NCBI GenBank assembly: GCA_024228115.1
Contig: JAAETT010000669.1
Span: forward strand, 1 to 41,430
Direction: 5' to 3'
From: a bacterium
GTDB lineage: Bacteria > Myxococcota_A > UBA9160 > UBA6930
DNA length: 41,430 bases
Shown in pieces: positions 7,807-16,571 of this stretch. A program made the position numbers and the translations under genes. Each line of letters starts with the position of its first letter. The stretch's first letter is position 1. Under the pieces are notes generated by a model. It was given only the letters and a program-made list of their open reading frames with translations. It was not told where the DNA came from and made no database searches.

Positions 7807-8937
7807 TCAATCCGAGGGGAGACTGATCACGAAACAGGCCCCACCCGCTTCGGATTTCTCGACGCGGACCGACCCCGCGTGATCCCGTACAACGCTTTCG
7901 ACGATCGCCAGGCCGAGACCATTGCCCTGGCTCTTGCCTTCAGTCACGAAGGGCTCGAAGAGTCTGTCCTGGATCTCCTCGGAAATACCGCGGCCCGAGT
8001 CCGCCACACTCAGCTCCACCCGCTCGTCGAATCCACGGGCTGCGACCTCGAGCGTTCCGCCCTGGGGCATCTCCTCCACGGCATTCTGCAGCAGATTGCG
8101 AAGCGCTCGCAGCAACTGGTCTTCGTCACCTCGGAGTTGAAGGCCAGGGGCCCCGTGAAGACCGACGTGGATGCCGGCGCAACCAGCGAGTTCGAGATAG
8201 GGTGCGACGGCTTTGCTCAGGAGCGCGTCAACCTGGAGATCCACGGGCGCGAGGGGGCACTTCGAGACACGGGTCACCTCGAGAAGTTCCTCGCACATTC
8301 GCGCCATGCGCTGGGTCTCCTGGAGGATTTCCGCGAGCAACTCCGACGCGGTCTCCTCTTGATCTCTGGCGATCTGCGCGAGTCCCTGGATGGCCGCCAG
8401 AGGTCCACGAAGATCGTGGACGATCGTGGCAATCGTCTTGCCGACGGCCGAGAGCCGTTCACTCGCAAGCAGCTGGGATTGCGATCTCTCTAGCTCGGCG
8501 AGCGCTTCTTGGAGGGCATGGTTCTGCTCGACCGTGATCGAAACGAGTCGCCGATTTTCCCGTGCGAGGCCGACACGAACGAGAACGCCTCGCACGGCCT
8601 CCTCCAGGTCCGGTGGCGAGCAGGGTTTATGAAGGTAGGCATGAACTCGGCCCCGATTGATGGAATCGACAGTCGAGTCCATGTCCGAGTAGCCAGTGAG
8701 AAGGATGCAGCCGACGTTCTCGTCCTGTTCGGCGACCTTTGCCAGCAACTCGACGCCGGACATACCCGGCATTCGTTGGTCAGAGACGATCAAGTCGAAT
8801 GCTCCAGGCGAGAACTTCCGCCAGGCCTCGTCGCCACTGGCGGCCGTCTCGACATCACCGAGACGCCGGAGCGAGCGGACTAGCAGTCCGACCGCGCGGG
8901 GCTCATCGTCCACGACCAGGATTCGGGGCTTGTCCAC
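7807..8937 (-). CDS. Hybrid response regulator-histidine kinase (REC-HisKA-HATPase)
   Basis: 376 residues from GTG 8937. The receiver domain (residues 4-120) has the acidic pair at 10-11, phospho-acceptor Asp53 in SDQRMPG and Lys104 in YLHKP. A coiled-coil linker (about 125-160) leads to HisKA with His174 in VHDLRGPL, then a GHKL ATPase: N-box NLLQNAVEEM (Asn285), G1 DSGRG (313-317), F-box LFEPF and G2 GNGLGL (338-343). There is no membrane segment, so this is a cytoplasmic kinase whose activity is set by phosphorylation of its own N-terminal receiver. It is the last gene of a same-strand signalling group running from 14959 down to here, suggesting it is a relay partner of the upstream kinase or sensor. 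Confidence 0.93.
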   Translation of the reverse strand: MDKPRILVVDDEPRAVGLLVRSLRRLGDVETAASGDEAWRKFSPGAFDLIVSDQRMPGMSGVELLAKVAEQDENVGCILLTGYSDMDSTVDSINRGRVHAYLHKPCSPPDLEEAVRGVLVRVGLARENRRLVSITVEQNHALQEALAELERSQSQLLASERLSAVGKTIATIVHDLRGPLAAIQGLAQIARDQEETASELLAEILQETQRMARMCEELLEVTRVSKCPLAPVDLQVDALLSKAVAPYLELAGCAGIHVGLHGAPGLQLRGDEDQLLRALRNLLQNAVEEMPQGGTLEVAARGFDERVELSVADSGRGISEEIQDRLFEPFVTEGKSQGNGLGLAIVESVVRDHAGSVRVEKSEAGGACFVISLPSD

Positions 8938-9000
8938 GACCTGTCATCGACCGGTCCGGAAATCGACCTTAGAGAGCGCACCCGAAACTGAGCAGTTCGC

Positions 9001-9699
9001 CTAGGCTGTACGCCCGATCCAGGACTGGATTCGCTCTGCGGCTCCAGCGCCCACGTCGCTGAACGAGACATCCAGGCCTCCGGGGCGACCCCACGCAGGC
9101 TCCACCACACCCTCGACCCGAGCAGCCAGCGGCAGCCGTTGGCGATTCACCACGAGGGTCAGCACCAGCTCGCTCCCGGCCTCCACCGGACCCTCGGCGA
9201 GCAGAAATGCCCCATCCGGCCTAAGCGATCCAATCTCCCAGGCGACCGTGAGCGCCAGCGGCTCCTCGGGATCGACGAGCAGCGCGTAGCCAAGCGCCGC
9301 CGTCGTCCGTCGCCTGGAAGGCGCGGCCACCTGGGTGGGCACGTGACGTTCCCAGACCTCGACGATGTCGCTGAGCGCCAGAGGCTTGGGCAGGTAGTCG
9401 AGCGCGCCGAGGCGATGGGCCAGTGTGGCACCGCCGGGGGTGGGCTTTGAGGTCACAATGATCGAGGGCATTTCGGGCCTCTCGTCTCGCAGCAGATCGA
9501 AGCCGGTGCCATCGGGCAGCACCACATCCGTGACCAGCAGCTCGATGTCGTCGCGCTTTTGAAGCTGTTCCGCCGCTTCGGCGCAGGTCCGGGCGGTGAT
9601 CACCTCCTCGCAGCAGGTTTCGAGCATCCGGCGCAGGGCGTCGGAGAAGACGGCTGAATCGTCGACCAGCAGAACGGTTCCCAATTCGATCGTCATCAT
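9001..9699 (-). CDS. Response regulator with C-terminal PilZ-like domain
   Basis: 232 residues from ATG 9699; a second ATG follows directly. The receiver domain (7-122) has the DD pair at 13-14, phospho-acceptor Asp58 in VTDVVLPDG and Lys105 in YLPKP. After a basic linker, residues 135-232 resemble PilZ-type domains of the TIGR02266-like group (DGAFLLAEGPVEAGSELVL, then GGLDVSFSDVG). The c-di-GMP-binding RxxxR and D/NxSxxG motifs are not intact, so nucleotide binding is doubtful and the domain may act by protein contact. It starts 20 bases after the kinase-less sensor gene, so the two are very probably cotranscribed. Likely output: motility, surface or stress control, by inference only. Confidence 0.85.
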   Translation of the reverse strand: MMTIELGTVLLVDDSAVFSDALRRMLETCCEEVITARTCAEAAEQLQKRDDIELLVTDVVLPDGTGFDLLRDERPEMPSIIVTSKPTPGGATLAHRLGALDYLPKPLALSDIVEVWERHVPTQVAAPSRRRTTAALGYALLVDPEEPLALTVAWEIGSLRPDGAFLLAEGPVEAGSELVLTLVVNRQRLPLAARVEGVVEPAWGRPGGLDVSFSDVGAGAAERIQSWIGRTA

Positions 9700-9719
9700 C
9701 TGTTCCCCAGTTGTTGTGT

Positions 9720-10724
9720 TCAAGCCTTCATCGGCTCGGGAAAGCTCTCGCCCCGTACGGCCCATGCCAAAGAGAGCGGAAGAATGAAGCCGGTCAACGC
9801 GATGGCGTTTTGCGGCGAGCGGCCCCCCGTCACGAACTCGAAGAGCGTGATGACGACGGGAAGCAACAAGGCGACCCCGCAGCCGAGTGCGACCGTGCGC
9901 AGCCGTGCGCGCACCTCGGCAACCAGGGGCCGGCGGTAGCGTTCGACCTCGGAGACCACGAATACGACCAGCGCGACGCCGATGGCGCTCACAGCGACCA
10001 GGTGAGTCGTCGTGTACACGCTCGGTGTCCGGAGGCCCCATTGGTTGGCGGCGGCAAGGAACCCGGCGAGGATGTACGGAACGACGACCAGCCATGGGCG
10101 GCGACGCACCGGGCCGAGCGCGGTCGGGAAGCAGAGGGCCATGTGCAGGGCGCAGGCAGGCAACAGGGTCTCGGCGAGGGCGTGCACCCGGAAGGTCCGG
10201 TAGGGCCCGTAGATGTCCATCGCCGTCAACGCCCACACCGCGGCGACCAGCAGGATGGGTGCGACCGCCATCGCCGAGTCGTTGCGATCTCGGGCTCCCA
10301 GGGCGATCAGGGCGGCGATTCCAAGGGCCAGGCCGTTCAAGAGATAGAGGCCGTGTAGAAGCGTGGCGTCTCGCCAGCCGAAGTGACGGGTGGCGATCGA
10401 TCGCTCGAAGCTCCCCTCGCTTCCGCGGAAGCTGTAGGCAAGCTCGGTGCCGATCGGGCTCTCGGCAACGATCGCGCGGATCGCGTTGACGTGCAGGGTG
10501 CGCTCGCCGTCGATCGCAGTGATCTCGTGCTGGTAGATCTCACCTCCGGCCGTGCCAGGCCAGAGAGAGAGGCCCACCGAGGCAACGACGCGATTCTCGA
10601 GGACCAGAAAGCCCGGGAAGGGCTGACCGATCTGCGAGAGGGCGCCCGCCCCGCCAGCCAGCCCTGCCAGGAGAAGCAGGACGGCAGCGGCGACGCGAAG
10701 CGGGTCATGAAAGAAGGAACGCAT
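9720..10724 (-). CDS. Kinase-less membrane sensor, paralogue of the 12431-14959 kinase sensor half
   Basis: 334 residues. An N-terminal transmembrane helix is followed by a PDZ-like extracytoplasmic domain (about 30-110: FPGFLVLENRVVASVGL, PIGTELAYSFRG) and then about seven hydrophobic helices to the C-terminus. The same architecture and many identical blocks (LENRVVAS, ALTAMDIYGPY with FRVHA, AANQWGL with VYTTTHLVAV) occur in the N-terminal 400 residues of the nearby histidine kinase, but here the protein ends where GAF and kinase domains would begin. It looks like a duplicated sensor without an output domain. It lies directly upstream of the receiver-PilZ gene, which may be its functional partner. 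The ribosome binding site is weak (AGG). Confidence 0.8.
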   Translation of the reverse strand: MRSFFHDPLRVAAAVLLLLAGLAGGAGALSQIGQPFPGFLVLENRVVASVGLSLWPGTAGGEIYQHEITAIDGERTLHVNAIRAIVAESPIGTELAYSFRGSEGSFERSIATRHFGWRDATLLHGLYLLNGLALGIAALIALGARDRNDSAMAVAPILLVAAVWALTAMDIYGPYRTFRVHALAETLLPACALHMALCFPTALGPVRRRPWLVVVPYILAGFLAAANQWGLRTPSVYTTTHLVAVSAIGVALVVFVVSEVERYRRPLVAEVRARLRTVALGCGVALLLPVVITLFEFVTGGRSPQNAIALTGFILPLSLAWAVRGESFPEPMKA

Positions 10725-10767
10725 GGAGGAACTACCTGAGAGAGAGTGTGAACGAAGAGTCGTTGCT

Positions 10768-12180
10768 CTACTTCAGGGTTGCGGTCGCCGTGGCCCCGTC
10801 ACTGGCAGTGACGGTGACCGTGCGGCCATCCAGGTTCGTGTTGGTCTTGTACTTGTACTCGAAGCGATCCTTCTTCGCGTTCCACTTCATGGCGCCTGCA
10901 CCGACACCGTCGACGGTCGCGGTCAACGTCACGTCCGGGCTCGAAGCCGTGGCGAACACTTTGACGATGGCCCTCTTGTTGTTGTAGACCGACGTGGTGA
11001 TCGTGATCTCGGTAGTCGGCGTGACCGGCTCCGGATCGGAAACCGTCACGAGCTCAGGTTCGGAGACCGTTGCCGGCGCCACGGCGACCGTCGATTCTTC
11101 CGTCGCCTTCAACGTCACCTCGTCGGAGCCGGCGAAGATCGCACCGAGTGCGTCCATGGTGGCATTCTCGGTCTTGTAGACGGTCGCGCCAAACGTCAGC
11201 TCGGCCATCTCCTCGGGTTCGATCGGAAGCTTGGTCACGGCAGCAGAGGCCAGCAGATCGACGGTTCGAGAGCCCGGCGAAACCTGGTCGGGCACGGAGA
11301 TCGCAACGATCAACATGTCATGATCGATGTGGAAGCTCCCGTCCGGGTGGAAACCATCGCTTACTTCGTGGCTGCCACCCTGCTGGTGGGCCCTCGCGTA
11401 GGTCTGGAACTCGTGACGCCAATAGGTGAGCAGATCGCTGTTGTTCTCCTTGTCCCAGGCCTCGGCGACCTGCGAGTTGAAAGTGAGGCCGCGCAGTCCG
11501 GCGTCGTCCTCGACCTCCCATCCGTAGTAGCTACCCCATTCGCGCCCGGTGGCGTCCTCGACAGCCAGCGTGAAGAGCGTCAAGTCGACGCCATCGCGAT
11601 TGTAGAACACGACGTCTTCCGGACCGAAGCGAACCGGGAGCTTGCCGAGGCTCATCGCGAACTGCGTCGGATCGAGAACGTCCCGAAGGTCGAACGGAAT
11701 CAGGATGGTTCCATCCTCCGTCACTGCGACCATCAGCTCCTGCATCATGATGACTGCGTCGCCGGCCGGGAGGCGGCGCGGCAAGGCCATCGCTGTGAAC
11801 AGGCTGGAATCGTAGACGTCAGTGTCTCCCCGCTCCGTCCCTTCCATCTCGGTCACATGGAGCTCGACCGGTCCTATGTTGACGAGCTTCGGCATTTCGA
11901 TGCGAAGCTGGGTCTTGCTGTCGGCGACAACCGTCACCTTGGCGACGAACCATCCCGGCTTGCCGAACGAGACCTCGTAGGTCTTGCCGACATCGAACTC
12001 GTCCTTCTGGGCGTTGATCAGCATGGGCTGCCCACCCGAGGCGAACGGCGGCATGATTGGCGCCCAGGCCGGCGGCGGATGATCGCAGCCGCAGCCAGCA
12101 AGAATGGGAGCGGGGTTCGGCACCAGCGCCAGCAGCGCGAGAACTGCGGTAAGTGCGAAAAAGCGATAGATGGAGGTCAT
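10768..12180 (-). CDS. Secreted or lipid-anchored protein of unknown function
   Basis: 470 residues from ATG 12180, with GGGA 8 bases upstream. The signal peptide (MTSIYRFFALTAVLALLALV) runs into an LAGCGCD sequence that could act as a lipobox. The mature part starts with a beta-rich domain reminiscent of IPT/TIG folds (DEFDVGKTYEVSFGKPGWFV with KVTVVADSKTQLRIEM), continues through a region with conserved-looking acidic and aromatic residues (WGSYYGWEVEDDAGLRGLTF) and ends in a Thr/Val-rich Ig-like module (DVTLTATVDGVGAG, DGRTVTVTASDGATATATL). Repeated TVSEPELVTVSDPEPVTPTT forms a linker. Its position between a histidine kinase and a kinase-less sensor suggests an exported partner or ligand-binding component of that signalling system. 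Function not recognised. Confidence 0.75.
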   Translation of the reverse strand: MTSIYRFFALTAVLALLALVPNPAPILAGCGCDHPPPAWAPIMPPFASGGQPMLINAQKDEFDVGKTYEVSFGKPGWFVAKVTVVADSKTQLRIEMPKLVNIGPVELHVTEMEGTERGDTDVYDSSLFTAMALPRRLPAGDAVIMMQELMVAVTEDGTILIPFDLRDVLDPTQFAMSLGKLPVRFGPEDVVFYNRDGVDLTLFTLAVEDATGREWGSYYGWEVEDDAGLRGLTFNSQVAEAWDKENNSDLLTYWRHEFQTYARAHQQGGSHEVSDGFHPDGSFHIDHDMLIVAISVPDQVSPGSRTVDLLASAAVTKLPIEPEEMAELTFGATVYKTENATMDALGAIFAGSDEVTLKATEESTVAVAPATVSEPELVTVSDPEPVTPTTEITITTSVYNNKRAIVKVFATASSPDVTLTATVDGVGAGAMKWNAKKDRFEYKYKTNTNLDGRTVTVTASDGATATATLK

Positions 12181-12389
12181 CACGAGGTCCCTTCGAGATC
12201 GAAAATCGGTTCCGTCGAGGCTCGAAGGAGCAAGGGCCATGCCATGGGCAGAAGACGCGGCAACCCCTCGAAAACGTGACGTTGTCCGCGGAGCGATCTG
12301 CCCGCGGCGGTGACGGCCCTCGGCACGTCCGGCTTCGTCAACATGCAAGCATCGACGAAGACACGCGAGATTGGGCTGCTTGCAACGCC

Positions 12390-12431
12390 GACAACCGGGT
12401 TGTCAGCACACAGCGACAACTGCGTTGTCGC
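12390..12431. promoter_or_regulatory. Two related palindromes GACAAC-N-GTTGTC upstream of the secreted-protein gene
   Basis: GACAACCGGGTTGTC (12390-12404) and GCGACAACTGCGTTGTCGC (12413-12431) share the same half-site GACAAC in inverted pairs, with centres 25 bases apart. The second touches the stop codon of the kinase gene. Tandem matching palindromes in front of 10768-12180 look like a pair of operators; as RNA they could also form two hairpins ending the kinase transcript, but no U-tract follows. Confidence 0.5.
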
Positions 12432-14959
12432 TAGTTGCCCTCTCGAGCGAGCTGCGAGCGCTGCGGGAGTTCGACGCGAAAGCAGGTGCCCTGGCCGGGT
12501 TCGCTCCGCACCTCGAGTCGGCCGCTGTGGCGAGTCACGATCCCGTAGGAGATGGACAAGCCCAGCCCCGTCCCCGTCCCTACCTCCTTGGTGGTAAAGA
12601 ACGGCTCGTAGATCCTCTCCACAACGTCCGGAGGGATGCCACAGCCGTCGTCTTCTACCTCGAAGAAGACTGAATCGTCGCCGACCTGACCGAGGCGAAC
12701 CGTGATGTTGCCAGCTTCGCCGAGGGCGTCCGCGGCATTGGCCAGCAAGTTCATGAGTACCTGACCGATCTGGCCCTCCAGGCACTCGACCGGCGGGGTG
12801 TTCGCGTACTCGCGCTGTACCTCGATTCCTGTCAGGCGACCCCGCAGAAGGTTCACGGTGGCATCGAGGGCCTGGCCCAGGTCGACCTCGGAGACCTCAC
12901 CTGCATCCGTTCGAGAGAAGCTACGCAGATCCCGAACGATGCGAGTTGCGCGCTCCACGCCCTCGTCGCAGCCCTGAAAGACCGATCCTAGATCTTCGAG
13001 AACGAAGTCCAGGTCGTGCGCTTCGCGAATCGCCGCAACCCGCTCGCAAAGCCCGGGCCCGTCCTCCTTCGCAGCATCCTGAACCTCCTCGAAGGCCCCG
13101 CGCAGGGCCTGCATGTAGCCCCGAAGATGGTGAATGTTGCCTTCGATGAAGTTCAGCGGGTTGTTGATCTCGTGGGCGACGCCCGCCACCAGCGCGCCAA
13201 CCGAGGCCATCTTTTCCTGATGCACCATCTGACGCTGGGTCTCCTGCAACTCCTCGAGGGTTTCCGCCAACTCAGAGGTTCGTGCTTCGACCCTGCCCTC
13301 GAGCGTACGGTTGAGTTCCTGAAGCGCGTCGACGGCCAGCGCGTTCTCGAAGGCAATGGCGCCCTGGTTGGCGAGCACGTGGAGGAGGCGCCTGTCCTCA
13401 CCGCCAAAGAAGGCCCCGGACCGTCTACCACCCAGCACCATCAAGGCCACGAGTCTGTCTTCCAGGGCGAAGGGGATTGCCAAGCCGCCGCCATCGAGGT
13501 CGTAGGCGAACTCGATCTGGCCGGAATCGAGTTCCTCTGCAATGTCTTCGGGAACCGCCATACGCGTCAGTTCCGGGCTGACGGAAGAGGCGTTCGACGC
13601 GCGAACCAGCAGCACGACGCTCTCGGGCTGAAATGCCTCCGTCACCGCTTCCCGGATCTTCTGCTCGATGAAATCGAGATCCGTAGCCGAGGCCAGGTCG
13701 GCACTCGTCCTCTCGACCAGAAGGCGAAAGTCGTAGCTGGTGCGGAAGAAGACGCGGTCGATCGCCGACTGCACTCGGTTCCGCAGGGGAAGCAGGACCA
13801 GGACGGACGCTCCTGCGAAGAGCCCACTGCGGGCACCCAGAGAAGGCGAGCCACTGAATTCGAAGACAGCCTCCATCAGCGTCGCGGTCAACGCATAGAC
13901 ACCGGCCAATGCGACGGTGAGTGCCGCGTAGCCGAACCCCCGCCGGACGATGATGTCGATATCGAGCAGGTTCTGGTGCAAGACCGCGTATCCGATCGCC
14001 AGCGGATACAGGAACACCGTCAGGGCAGCGGCACTTTCCGATGCCGCGCCGCCGGTCGCGACGGAGCTGAGGATCAGCAAGCCGGGCGGGCCCAGGGAGA
14101 CCACCGTTCCCAGGGCCAGCACCTTCACCCGTTGACGCGCCTCGAAACTCTCCGACCAACGCCACGCGTAGACCTGTGAAGCCAGCAAGGCCGCCAGCCC
14201 GATCCCGAACCCGATCACGGCCACACGATGGGTCGCGGTGTACAGCACGGGATCGTAGAGGCCGACCTGATTCGCGACAGCGAGCACGGCTGACGCGCCA
14301 TACACGCCGGGGAGAAGCCATGGATACCGCTCGAGGAGAGCATGGGGAGCAGGAAAGACCAGCGCGACATGAACGGTCGCCGCGAACAAGAAACACTCGA
14401 AGGCAGCGTGCAGTCGAAATAGATGATAGTCCCCGTAGAGGTCCATCGCCGTCAGTGCGAACATGCCACTGATCCAAAGCGACCAGGCAATGCCGCCTGC
14501 ACGACGCATCTCGCCGCCACGCAAGAACCGGATCGTCAGCGCGACGCCGCAGAGACTGAGTCCGCATAACAAGAAGGCGCCGAACAAGAAGATGTAGTCC
14601 GTTCGACTGAACATCCGGGTCTCGATGATGCGTTCCGTTTCCTCACCGGTGGGTGCGCGGAATCGAAGAGCGACGGGCGTCCCTACGGGAACCGTTCGCG
14701 CGTATTGGCGCAGTTCGCGCGCATCTGCGAGGAGGTTCCCGTTGGCCGCGACGAGTTCCTGTTGGAAGAGGTCCCCTGCGGCGGTCGCTGGCCAGTTCTC
14801 CAGCCCCGCCGAAGCGACGACACGGTTCTCGAGCAGGAGCAGTCCGGAGAAAGGTTGATCGACGAAGCCCAGCGAACTCCGCACACCCACGGCCGTCGCA
14901 ACCAGCCACAAGGCGACACCGATCCAGAGGATCGCATCCTTCTCGCTGCGCACAGCCAT
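12431..14959 (-). CDS. Membrane sensor histidine kinase (PDZ-like, 7TM, GAF, HisKA, HATPase)
   Basis: 842 residues from ATG 14959; longer readings upstream run into the divergent lnt gene. Order: one transmembrane helix, a PDZ-like extracytoplasmic domain (about 35-120, LLLLENRVVASAGL, VPVGTPVALRFRAP), about seven to eight hydrophobic helices ending with NLLDIDIIVRRGFGYAAL, a GAF-like domain (about 430-570), a coiled coil (TLEGRVEARTSELAETLEEL), HisKA with His596 in GVAHEINNP, and a GHKL ATPase with MNLLANAADAL, DDGCGIPP, YEPFFTTK and GTGLGL. This is a complete NtrB/AtoS-type kinase core. It heads a same-strand series of signalling genes and is divergent from lnt across 67 bases. Confidence 0.92.
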   Translation of the reverse strand: MAVRSEKDAILWIGVALWLVATAVGVRSSLGFVDQPFSGLLLLENRVVASAGLENWPATAAGDLFQQELVAANGNLLADARELRQYARTVPVGTPVALRFRAPTGEETERIIETRMFSRTDYIFLFGAFLLCGLSLCGVALTIRFLRGGEMRRAGGIAWSLWISGMFALTAMDLYGDYHLFRLHAAFECFLFAATVHVALVFPAPHALLERYPWLLPGVYGASAVLAVANQVGLYDPVLYTATHRVAVIGFGIGLAALLASQVYAWRWSESFEARQRVKVLALGTVVSLGPPGLLILSSVATGGAASESAAALTVFLYPLAIGYAVLHQNLLDIDIIVRRGFGYAALTVALAGVYALTATLMEAVFEFSGSPSLGARSGLFAGASVLVLLPLRNRVQSAIDRVFFRTSYDFRLLVERTSADLASATDLDFIEQKIREAVTEAFQPESVVLLVRASNASSVSPELTRMAVPEDIAEELDSGQIEFAYDLDGGGLAIPFALEDRLVALMVLGGRRSGAFFGGEDRRLLHVLANQGAIAFENALAVDALQELNRTLEGRVEARTSELAETLEELQETQRQMVHQEKMASVGALVAGVAHEINNPLNFIEGNIHHLRGYMQALRGAFEEVQDAAKEDGPGLCERVAAIREAHDLDFVLEDLGSVFQGCDEGVERATRIVRDLRSFSRTDAGEVSEVDLGQALDATVNLLRGRLTGIEVQREYANTPPVECLEGQIGQVLMNLLANAADALGEAGNITVRLGQVGDDSVFFEVEDDGCGIPPDVVERIYEPFFTTKEVGTGTGLGLSISYGIVTRHSGRLEVRSEPGQGTCFRVELPQRSQLAREGN

Positions 14960-15026: not shown

Positions 15027-16571
15027 GTGGGTCGTGTGCTTGCCGTCTTCGTCTCGGCCGTGGCGTACGGTGCGCTGTGCTTCCCGCCATGGGCCTGGAG
15101 CTGGCTGGCCTGGATCGTGCTCGTGCCCTTGCTGTTGGTGCTTCGCGGCTCGGGCCCCTTGAAAGCCTTCATATGGACAGCTGGATGGGGCTACCTGGCC
15201 ACGATTTCCGTCATTGCGTGGCTGCTCCCCACGCTGACAGGCCATTTCGAGTGGTCCCAGCCCTTGAGTCTGGGTTTCATCGTCGGCTTTGGGGTCGTTG
15301 CTGCGGCACCGTTCTACGGGCTGGGAGGTGTCTTGTACGGAGCGGCCGCACGACGGCACGGCCCCCTCGCGGGCGCCGTCCTGTTCGCGGCCTGCTGGGT
15401 GGTGGGTGAGTTCGCGCGCACCCATCTCGGCTTTCGCACCCCCTGGGCCCTTCTCGGCGACAGCCAGGCGGAGGCGATCAGGATCCGCCAGTTGGCAGAC
15501 CTCGGTGGCGTCTATCTGGTCACCGCCATGGTTGCCTTCGTCAACGCCTGTCTCGCGGAGTTGATCCTCGTCTGCCACCGCGTCCTGCAACGCTCGCAGG
15601 CGTCTCCGCGACTGGCGCTTCCCGTCGCAGGTGCTGCTGTGGCGGTACTGCTCGCCTCGAATGTCTACGGCGAACTGAGGCGCCGCCAGTTCGCGCCGAC
15701 CGAGAGTGCGTTCAAGGTGGCGCTCGTCCAGGGCAATGTCCCCCCGCAGCTCCGCTGGCGCAGCTCAACTGCGAGCCATGTCGTGCGACGCTACGGAAGC
15801 CTCACGCGGAACCTCCTGCTCGAACGCGAGGAGCCAGACCCCGATCTCATCTTGTGGCCCGAGAACGCCATCCAGACTCCGCTCGACCACCCGACCTACG
15901 GTGCAGCCATTCAACGGGTTGCCATGCGAAGCCCTGTCTTGCTCGGCGCACCGCGCAATGAGGTCCTGGAGGGAAGCAACCGCGCGTACAACAGCGCTGT
16001 GCTGGTCGATGCCAGCGGCACGGTGGGTTCCTACGACAAGCGCCGCTTGCTTCCTTTCAGTGAGACCCGGCCGCTAGGCGATTGGTTGAGTCTCGGCGAG
16101 CGCGGCGATCTGGACGCAGGCTCCTACTCGGCCGGGCAATCCCCAGGGCTCTTCGCTGTCAATGGCGAAATGCTTGGTGTCCTGATCTGCATGGAGGGTC
16201 TGTACCCTGATCTGAGCCGTGAGGCCGTGCTGGGCGGCGCCAGCCTGCTCATCAATCTCTCCAATGACGGCTGGTACCGCGGCCTCGGCGGCGCCGAGCA
16301 ACATCTGCGACAGGTGGTCTTCCGCGCGATCGAGAACCGACGGCCTCTGCTTCGGGCAACCACGACGGGCATTTCAGCGATCGTCGGGCCCGATGGCTCG
16401 ATCGTGGCCAGCTTGCCTCAGGACGCGACGGGCGTCCTCGAGCATGCGGTTCCGGAGACGCCTGTAGGACTCTCGCCCTACACCCGCGCTGGAGATCTCT
16501 TCGCCTGGTCCTGCGTCGCAATTGCCGGGTTCGCGGCTCGACCACGGCAGAAGAAGAGCGATTCCGGGTAG
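15027..16571 (+). CDS. lnt: Apolipoprotein N-acyltransferase
   Basis: 514 residues from GTG 15027. It transfers the third acyl chain from phospholipid to the N-terminal cysteine of lipoproteins in the inner membrane. The first 215 residues hold five to six transmembrane helices, including ARTHLGFRTPWALLGDSQAE, a well-conserved Lnt segment. The nitrilase-like periplasmic domain has the full Glu-Lys-Cys triad: Glu279 in LWPEN, Lys338 in YDKRRLLPFSE and Cys388 in ICMEGLYPD. NLSNDGWY and FRAIENRRPLLRATTTGIS are also typical. No good ribosome binding site precedes the GTG, so a nearby GTG at 15033 is possible. The presence of several lipoproteins in the window is consistent. Confidence 0.95.
   Translation: MGRVLAVFVSAVAYGALCFPPWAWSWLAWIVLVPLLLVLRGSGPLKAFIWTAGWGYLATISVIAWLLPTLTGHFEWSQPLSLGFIVGFGVVAAAPFYGLGGVLYGAAARRHGPLAGAVLFAACWVVGEFARTHLGFRTPWALLGDSQAEAIRIRQLADLGGVYLVTAMVAFVNACLAELILVCHRVLQRSQASPRLALPVAGAAVAVLLASNVYGELRRRQFAPTESAFKVALVQGNVPPQLRWRSSTASHVVRRYGSLTRNLLLEREEPDPDLILWPENAIQTPLDHPTYGAAIQRVAMRSPVLLGAPRNEVLEGSNRAYNSAVLVDASGTVGSYDKRRLLPFSETRPLGDWLSLGERGDLDAGSYSAGQSPGLFAVNGEMLGVLICMEGLYPDLSREAVLGGASLLINLSNDGWYRGLGGAEQHLRQVVFRAIENRRPLLRATTTGISAIVGPDGSIVASLPQDATGVLEHAVPETPVGLSPYTRAGDLFAWSCVAIAGFAARPRQKKSDSG

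Follow-up and report, generated by a model that had tools for sequence, protein, structure and literature searches.

The window analysed here is a contig of 41,430 nt (JAAETT010000669.1; contig C669 of the 6.4 Mb draft genome G000) from a bacterium of the Myxococcota_A lineage, which carries five genes encoding a ComP-type sensor kinase, an exported protein, a membrane protein that repeats the sensor of this kinase without its kinase part, a receiver (REC) protein and a soluble REC-kinase. With a probability of about 0.5, we read this locus as a surface-protein signalling system, in which the exported protein and a copy of the system's own sensor that lacks the kinase make up a sigma54-driven output module. 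Co-expression of these two as a functional pair is very probable, because a sigma54 promoter lies upstream of the exported protein; induction of the pair by this same pathway is proposed with less assurance, as the better bet. Most likely, the pathway induces the pair as an output, which then binds or buffers the signal. A literature search, among open-licence papers, turned up no account of this locus.

The kinase-less sensor paralogue

The two sensors share 41% identity over 294 residues (E 5e-59), including the LENRVVAS and ALTAMD-YG-Y blocks, and both lie in the window; no further copy of this sensor was found in the window genome. Pfam detected HATPase_c, HisKA and a sub-threshold GAF in the long sensor only, which bears out a previous sequence-only reading of the shorter protein as a repeat of the kinase's sensor without a kinase. 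The kinase-less protein is predicted to fold (mean pLDDT 77.7) as a first transmembrane segment (TM1), a PDZ domain and then seven helices. The PDZ domain (model residues 34-115), previously described as PDZ-like, could be confirmed by its match to HtrA/Deg PDZ domains (best Z 12.2, rmsd 1.6, 77 residues); in the HtrA/Deg periplasmic proteases, these domains bind peptides. The seven-helix (7TM) description given to both sensors holds for the kinase-less copy, but the kinase has two hydrophobic segments more, ahead of its GAF-like and catalytic parts. GPCR-like structural matches of the helix bundle were weak, at the level of helical bundles only, and were not used.

Judged from its sequence, the kinase-less copy is a real, old and constrained paralogue. 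In a tree of 16 sensors, from which three kinase rows of genome G377 (all long odd branches, two with internal stops) and five distant rows were omitted, the kinase-less copies of the window, G046, G015 and G010 formed one clade (support 89/84) beside nine close kinase sensors. Across the alignment columns invariant in these nine kinase sensors, the kinase-less copies retained 50/53 cells in the PDZ domain, 76/88 in the outer half of the membrane part and 45/81 in the inner half (outer versus inner, Fisher p 1.4e-5).

A functionless truncated duplicate in local decay under relaxed constraint, which the sequence-only reading had set against itself, would account for a copy that stops just past the last shared helix, as a truncation would, and for the long branch of the window protein (0.83 in the tree). 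We regard this as very improbable: the copy belongs to one clade across four genomes, the kinase-less copies of the window and G046 share 52% identity, more than the 48% between the two genomes' kinase sensors, the periplasm-facing invariant positions are retained, and the codon-position GC of the gene is typical of coding DNA. Local truncation was thus rejected on the tree and the conservation, and is largely refuted by recurrence.

Another kinase-free arrangement was seen in the distant metagenome-assembled genome OFTM157 (G377, locus L061), where a 715-aa protein (L105:8978-11125, contig C126) contains two tandem TM1-PDZ-7TM sensors without a kinase. Both halves group with the sensor kinase on G377 contig C88, so this tandem sensor appears to have a separate kinase-free origin. 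Its gene is preceded by a XylR_N-V4R-sigma54 activator, and a sigma54-like site (20.0) at L105:7017 faces a gene for a small putative lipoprotein, which runs divergently from that of the activator.

The sigma54 promoter, its candidate enhancer sites and the activators

Each of the five genes could be confirmed as a minus-strand open reading frame at the coordinates given earlier (Table 1). The gap ahead of the exported-protein gene is 250 nt long and holds its own sigma54 promoter, so the cluster is predicted to comprise two transcription units, and a single operon of five genes was ruled out on these grounds; the earlier five-gene cluster holds in gene content and not as one operon.

The -24/-12 site TGGCATGGCCCTTGCT is located 64 nt 5' of the exported-protein start. 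Similar sites, scoring 20.2-20.9 of a maximum of 21.5, lie 63-84 nt upstream of the start in the window, G010, G046 (both copies) and G017, and a predicted sigma54 promoter at all five exported-protein genes of the order (5/5) is new here. Eight sites of >= 20.4 were found in 987,798 strand-bases, four of which are at exported-protein genes, with 0.005 expected in four 150-nt windows.

The element GACAACNNNGTTGTC has two exact copies in the whole window genome, both at this locus and upstream of the sigma54 site. Among eight genomes, the palindrome GACAAC-N3-GTTGTC, a proposed enhancer site, was detected at nine sites (two each in the window genome, G001 and G002; one each in G004, G010 and G017) and was found in neither G003 nor G046. 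Each of the seven sites within the genus, which come from 4/5 genomes of the genus, is followed by a sigma54 site of >= 19.7 at 73-171 nt (chance ~0.012 per site); the palindromes outside the genus (G010, G017) have no sigma54 site of >= 18.5 nearby. The genes behind the palindrome in G002 and G001 (C73) encode exported proteins with PEP-CTERM-like tails, one of them scoring 16.2 bits against the TIGR02595 cut-off of 16 and the others falling below the cut-offs, with VPEP or VAEP before a hydrophobic stretch. In G004 and G001 (C266), the palindrome adjoins a C300-type activator gene. GGTTTCC/GGTTGCC-type repeats, identified by eye, take the place of the palindrome in G010, G017 and G046, G010 being without an exact half-site. 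The window palindromes stand directly after the stop codon of the kinase gene and could also act as its terminator; a plain terminator was rejected because no T-run follows and the same palindrome precedes sigma54 promoters elsewhere. Next to the kinase locus at L038 (G001:C204), a gene for a PilZ protein (9802-10313) has a sigma54 site (21.2) at 10313 on the minus strand.

No sigma54 activator is present behind the kinase or REC-kinase in the window. In the window genome, the activator of the relatives is best matched by C300:2449-3765 (52% over almost the entire length), and the next match covers residues 112-444 only. On C300, half-site variants precede a sigma54 site and a DUF2889 gene; the sigma54 site between the activator gene and the DUF2889 gene scores 21.1 (L114:3979, G000:C300). 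The activators with a palindrome or half-sites nearby (C300, C266, C208) form one clade (100/99). On the simplest reading, the window exported-protein promoter would answer to a C300-type activator.

Recurrence of the modules and properties of their proteins

Sensor matches of any kind were found in 24/97 genomes searched and, at E 1e-20, in 43/377 genomes of the phylum. Kinase-less copies of the window clade occur in four genomes only, all of which also have a close sensor kinase; this count leaves out short frames running off contig ends (G067, G052, G024:C197) and G059:C141. A first scan of genome contigs with the membrane protein as the lone query gave no match. The sequence-only reading had made its case depend on the five genes co-occurring elsewhere, and the full set recurs in none of the relatives examined; what does recur is two sub-modules, the exported/kinase-less pair and the kinase/REC-kinase pair. 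The sensor kinase is directly followed by the REC-kinase in G010, G046, G001 and G018, and a sigma54 activator then follows in G010, G001 and G046; in G015, a partial activator is just downstream of the kinase. The exported-protein gene immediately precedes the kinase-less gene in the window, in G046 and, across two contig ends, in G010, i.e., in 3/4 genomes with a kinase-less copy, the fourth copy being at a contig end. The G046 pair is on a different contig from the kinase and is shortly followed, on the same strand, by a gene for a PEP-CTERM-like tail protein (L031:12115-12909, G046:C1; below family cut-offs). The exported-protein gene comes after the sigma54 activator in G017, and two copies in G377 are ~2-8 kb from the REC-kinase, Lnt homologue and sensor kinase, with no kinase-less copy there.

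In the window, the exported-protein, kinase-less and REC genes are inserted between kinase and REC-kinase. These five genes might be neighbours by chance, if an unrelated surface-protein operon had been inserted into a sensor kinase/REC-kinase system; the direct adjacency of REC-kinase and kinase in relatives would fit this, as would a REC-PilZ-like gene local to the window and a window palindrome unlike the GGTTTCC-type repeats of G010, G017 and G046. We consider such a coincidence improbable, since the inserted operon holds a paralogue of the adjacent sensor, the exported protein is near system components in 4/5 genomes (G000, G010, G017, G377), and the sigma54 activator is part of the kinase operon in relatives.

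The REC protein had been described as a receiver-PilZ-like regulator, of which the REC domain stands and the PilZ part is weak: its C-terminus reached E 0.0078 and 16.4 bits with TIGR02266 (cut-off 68.7) and gave no match to Pfam PilZ. This C-terminal domain has weak matches elsewhere (best other 39% identity; 9/97 genomes), and none of the matches listed is at the sensor-kinase or exported-protein loci compared, the gene being local to the window.

The exported protein has a signal peptide and an invariant A-GCGCD. A lipobox has a hydrophobic residue at position -3; in six aligned copies AGC is invariant but position -3 is L, T, H, S or E, while the spacing fits an AxA-type signal peptidase I site, and in view of these discordant residues a lipoprotein reading was not adopted. 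The TIG/Ig domain (40-134) matched a stretch of cyclodextrin glycosyltransferase (Z 9.6), and Pfam TIG was sub-threshold in the G046 copy. Six histidines in the stretch 249-293 (H256, H265, H271, H278, H284 and H287) are invariant across six aligned copies; metal binding by this stretch is only a guess, because the structure model is weak at 204-260. No C-terminal PEP-CTERM motif was matched in the window protein. A single-sequence search found the protein in 4/90 genomes of the class (G000, G010, G046 with two copies, and G084 with a tail-only match), and a profile search in 13/377 genomes of the phylum (three of them strong matches, G017 an intermediate one and nine weak ones limited to short stretches); it is also present in G377. 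Six exported proteins of the GCGC[DE] kind are encoded on contigs C88, C11, C23 and C20 of G377, and the tail of one or more of them consists of DUF7305 and Somatomedin_B.

The kinase-less protein may instead serve the exported protein alone, as its inner-membrane receptor or assembly partner in docking, export or maturation, and leave the kinase untouched, in which case the shared sensor would reflect the same kind of ligand. The exported/kinase-less pair travels together, in G046 even on a contig apart from the kinase, the sensor PDZ resembles that of HtrA/Deg periplasmic proteases, and the kinase-free 715-aa tandem sensor of G377 stands alone with a different sigma54 activator, all of which agree with such a partner. 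We hold it possible, if unlikely, as all four genomes of the kinase-less clade also hold a close sensor kinase. The C-terminal tails differ among the exported proteins, and binding of this C-terminus by the sensor PDZ, a contact that would suit such a partner, was rejected because the C-termini are not conserved.

An Lnt homologue is next to or near the sensor kinase at 12/18 loci compared, namely the window (15027-16571) and 11/17 others (L033, L035, L038, L043-L047, L049, L050, L061), with some misses on short contigs. The arrangement is also seen in distant copies of the locus. The window genome has four Lnt matches and G377 ten.

Table 1. Genes and predicted regulatory sites at the locus (window coordinates).
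Feature	Position	Strand	Description
ComP-type sensor kinase	12431..14959	-	842 aa; TM1, periplasmic PDZ, 9 further hydrophobic segments, GAF-like, HisKA, HATPase_c
Exported protein	10768..12180	-	470 aa; signal peptide, invariant GCGCDHPPP, TIG/Ig domain 40-134
Exported protein, remaining parts			beta domain; conserved His-rich stretch 249-293; variable C-terminal Ig-like tail
Kinase-less sensor paralogue	9720..10724	-	334 aa; TM1-PDZ-7TM, stops just past last helix
REC protein, C-terminal domain faintly like TIGR02266/PilZ	9001..9699	-	232 aa
Soluble REC-HisKA-HATPase_c protein (REC-kinase)	7807..8937	-	376 aa; directly behind sensor kinase in relatives
Divergent apolipoprotein N-acyltransferase (Lnt) homologue	15027..16571	+	LNT_N and CN_hydrolase; in many relatives also beside this kinase
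Palindrome GACAAC-N3-GTTGTC, proposed enhancer site 1	12415..12429	not assigned	
Palindrome GACAAC-N3-GTTGTC, proposed enhancer site 2	12390..12404	not assigned	
Predicted sigma54 -24/-12 promoter	12229..12244	-	64 nt 5' of exported-protein start codon

Comparison with known systems and proposed pathway

PEP-CTERM proteins have been described as being under the sigma54-dependent two-component control of PrsK/PrsR (Haft et al. 2006, PMC1569441), and that paper calls the signal sensed by PrsK obscure. Elsewhere, an RpoN-dependent PEP-CTERM gene (PMC9850573) and a Desulfovibrio regulator with PEP-CTERM targets (PMC3333781) have been reported. As outlined in PMC1569441, PrsK/PrsR shares with our locus a membrane kinase, a sigma54 enhancer-binding regulator, a repeat with a -24/-12 promoter and exported surface-protein targets. 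The regulon feature, in which genes for exported surface proteins are preceded by an enhancer repeat and a sigma54 promoter, was found here by sequence alone, and exosortase (PF09721) was present in 9/9 genomes tested and in 1/14 controls. Unlike PrsK/PrsR, the locus has a sensor built of PDZ and helix bundle, an activator without a detectable receiver, the palindrome GACAAC-N3-GTTGTC in contrast to the TTTACA-ending motif 1 given in PMC1569441, and an additional REC-kinase, Lnt homologue and kinase-less sensor. The PrsK model TIGR02916 gave 109.1 bits against a cut-off of 300, with its best stretch in the catalytic region, and the PrsR model TIGR02915 gave 297.5 (G010), 308.9 (C300), 295.7 (G004) and 324.9 bits (G017) against a cut-off of 502.6; the receiver domain that marks PrsR was absent from these results as well (Pfam, four activators). 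The locus is thus predicted to work like PrsK/PrsR with a ComP-type sensor, as a member of neither by the tests run.

ComA is the partner of ComP. The quorum-sensing kinase ComP of Bacillus is described as crossing the membrane ten times, its PDZ domain lying between segments one and two (PMC9620489), and the window kinase has the same TM1-PDZ-multiple TM-kinase architecture, as compared with this description and not with the ComP sequence. Unlike ComP, the locus has a REC-kinase and, in relatives, a sigma54 activator instead of ComA, and no ComX/ComQ was seen, although no search was aimed at them. QseE/QseG/QseF, as sketched in PMC6075780, also combines a kinase, an envelope accessory protein and a sigma54-dependent regulator; the accessory protein there is a lipoprotein, whereas here it is a truncated sensor copy.

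In the signalling system proposed here, the ComP-type kinase would use its PDZ domain and helix bundle to sense something on the outer side of the inner membrane. Downstream of the kinase and REC-kinase would come an enhancer-binding sigma54 activator in which no receiver domain is recognisable, here most likely that of C300. This activator would bind GACAAC-N3-GTTGTC and turn on the sigma54 promoter of the exported protein and, behind it, of the kinase-less sensor, the genes downstream of the exported protein presumably sharing its promoter. The induced kinase-less sensor may be a non-signalling partner of the same signal, as a feedback sink, a hetero-oligomer or a membrane docking site for the exported protein; damping as its effect is a tentative suggestion. 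It may also, as the sequence-only reading put it, compete for or present a signal that the exported protein carries.

Several points weigh against this proposal. That the kinase feeds the C300 activator is something we infer, and no Pfam Response_reg (receiver) was detected in the four activators tested, so ordinary phosphotransfer is not supported. G004 (activator and palindrome) and G002 (palindrome) are without a close sensor kinase, so a C300-type activator can answer to something else. The weights of the sigma54 scoring were chosen by the analyst and fixed after the window site had been seen, and none of the exported-protein genes tested in the distant G377 has a sigma54 site (0/5). G015 has the kinase-less gene, but the exported protein was not detected in its fragmented assembly. 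Finally, the kinase-bearing outgroup G377 C88 retains 13/17 of the invariant cells in the PDZ, 20/22 in the outer half and 10/21 in the inner half. Because this kinase shows it too, the inner-half loss is not specific to kinase-less proteins, and we make no claim that a kinase-coupling face was released in the kinase-less protein.

A more specific form of the proposal is an autocrine loop. A kinase-less receptor of the ComP type, induced through sigma54, would be made together with its own secreted ligand and would, as a decoy or co-receptor, tune the kinase of an exosortase-type surface regulon, the G377 tandem sensor being a second, independent kinase-free use of the receptor. We offer this as a speculation that is unlikely in full. 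A secreted product co-encoded with a stripped sensor copy would give a concrete candidate for what is sensed, and a feedback part. If this is true, receptors of ComP architecture would work without a kinase in two independent lineages.

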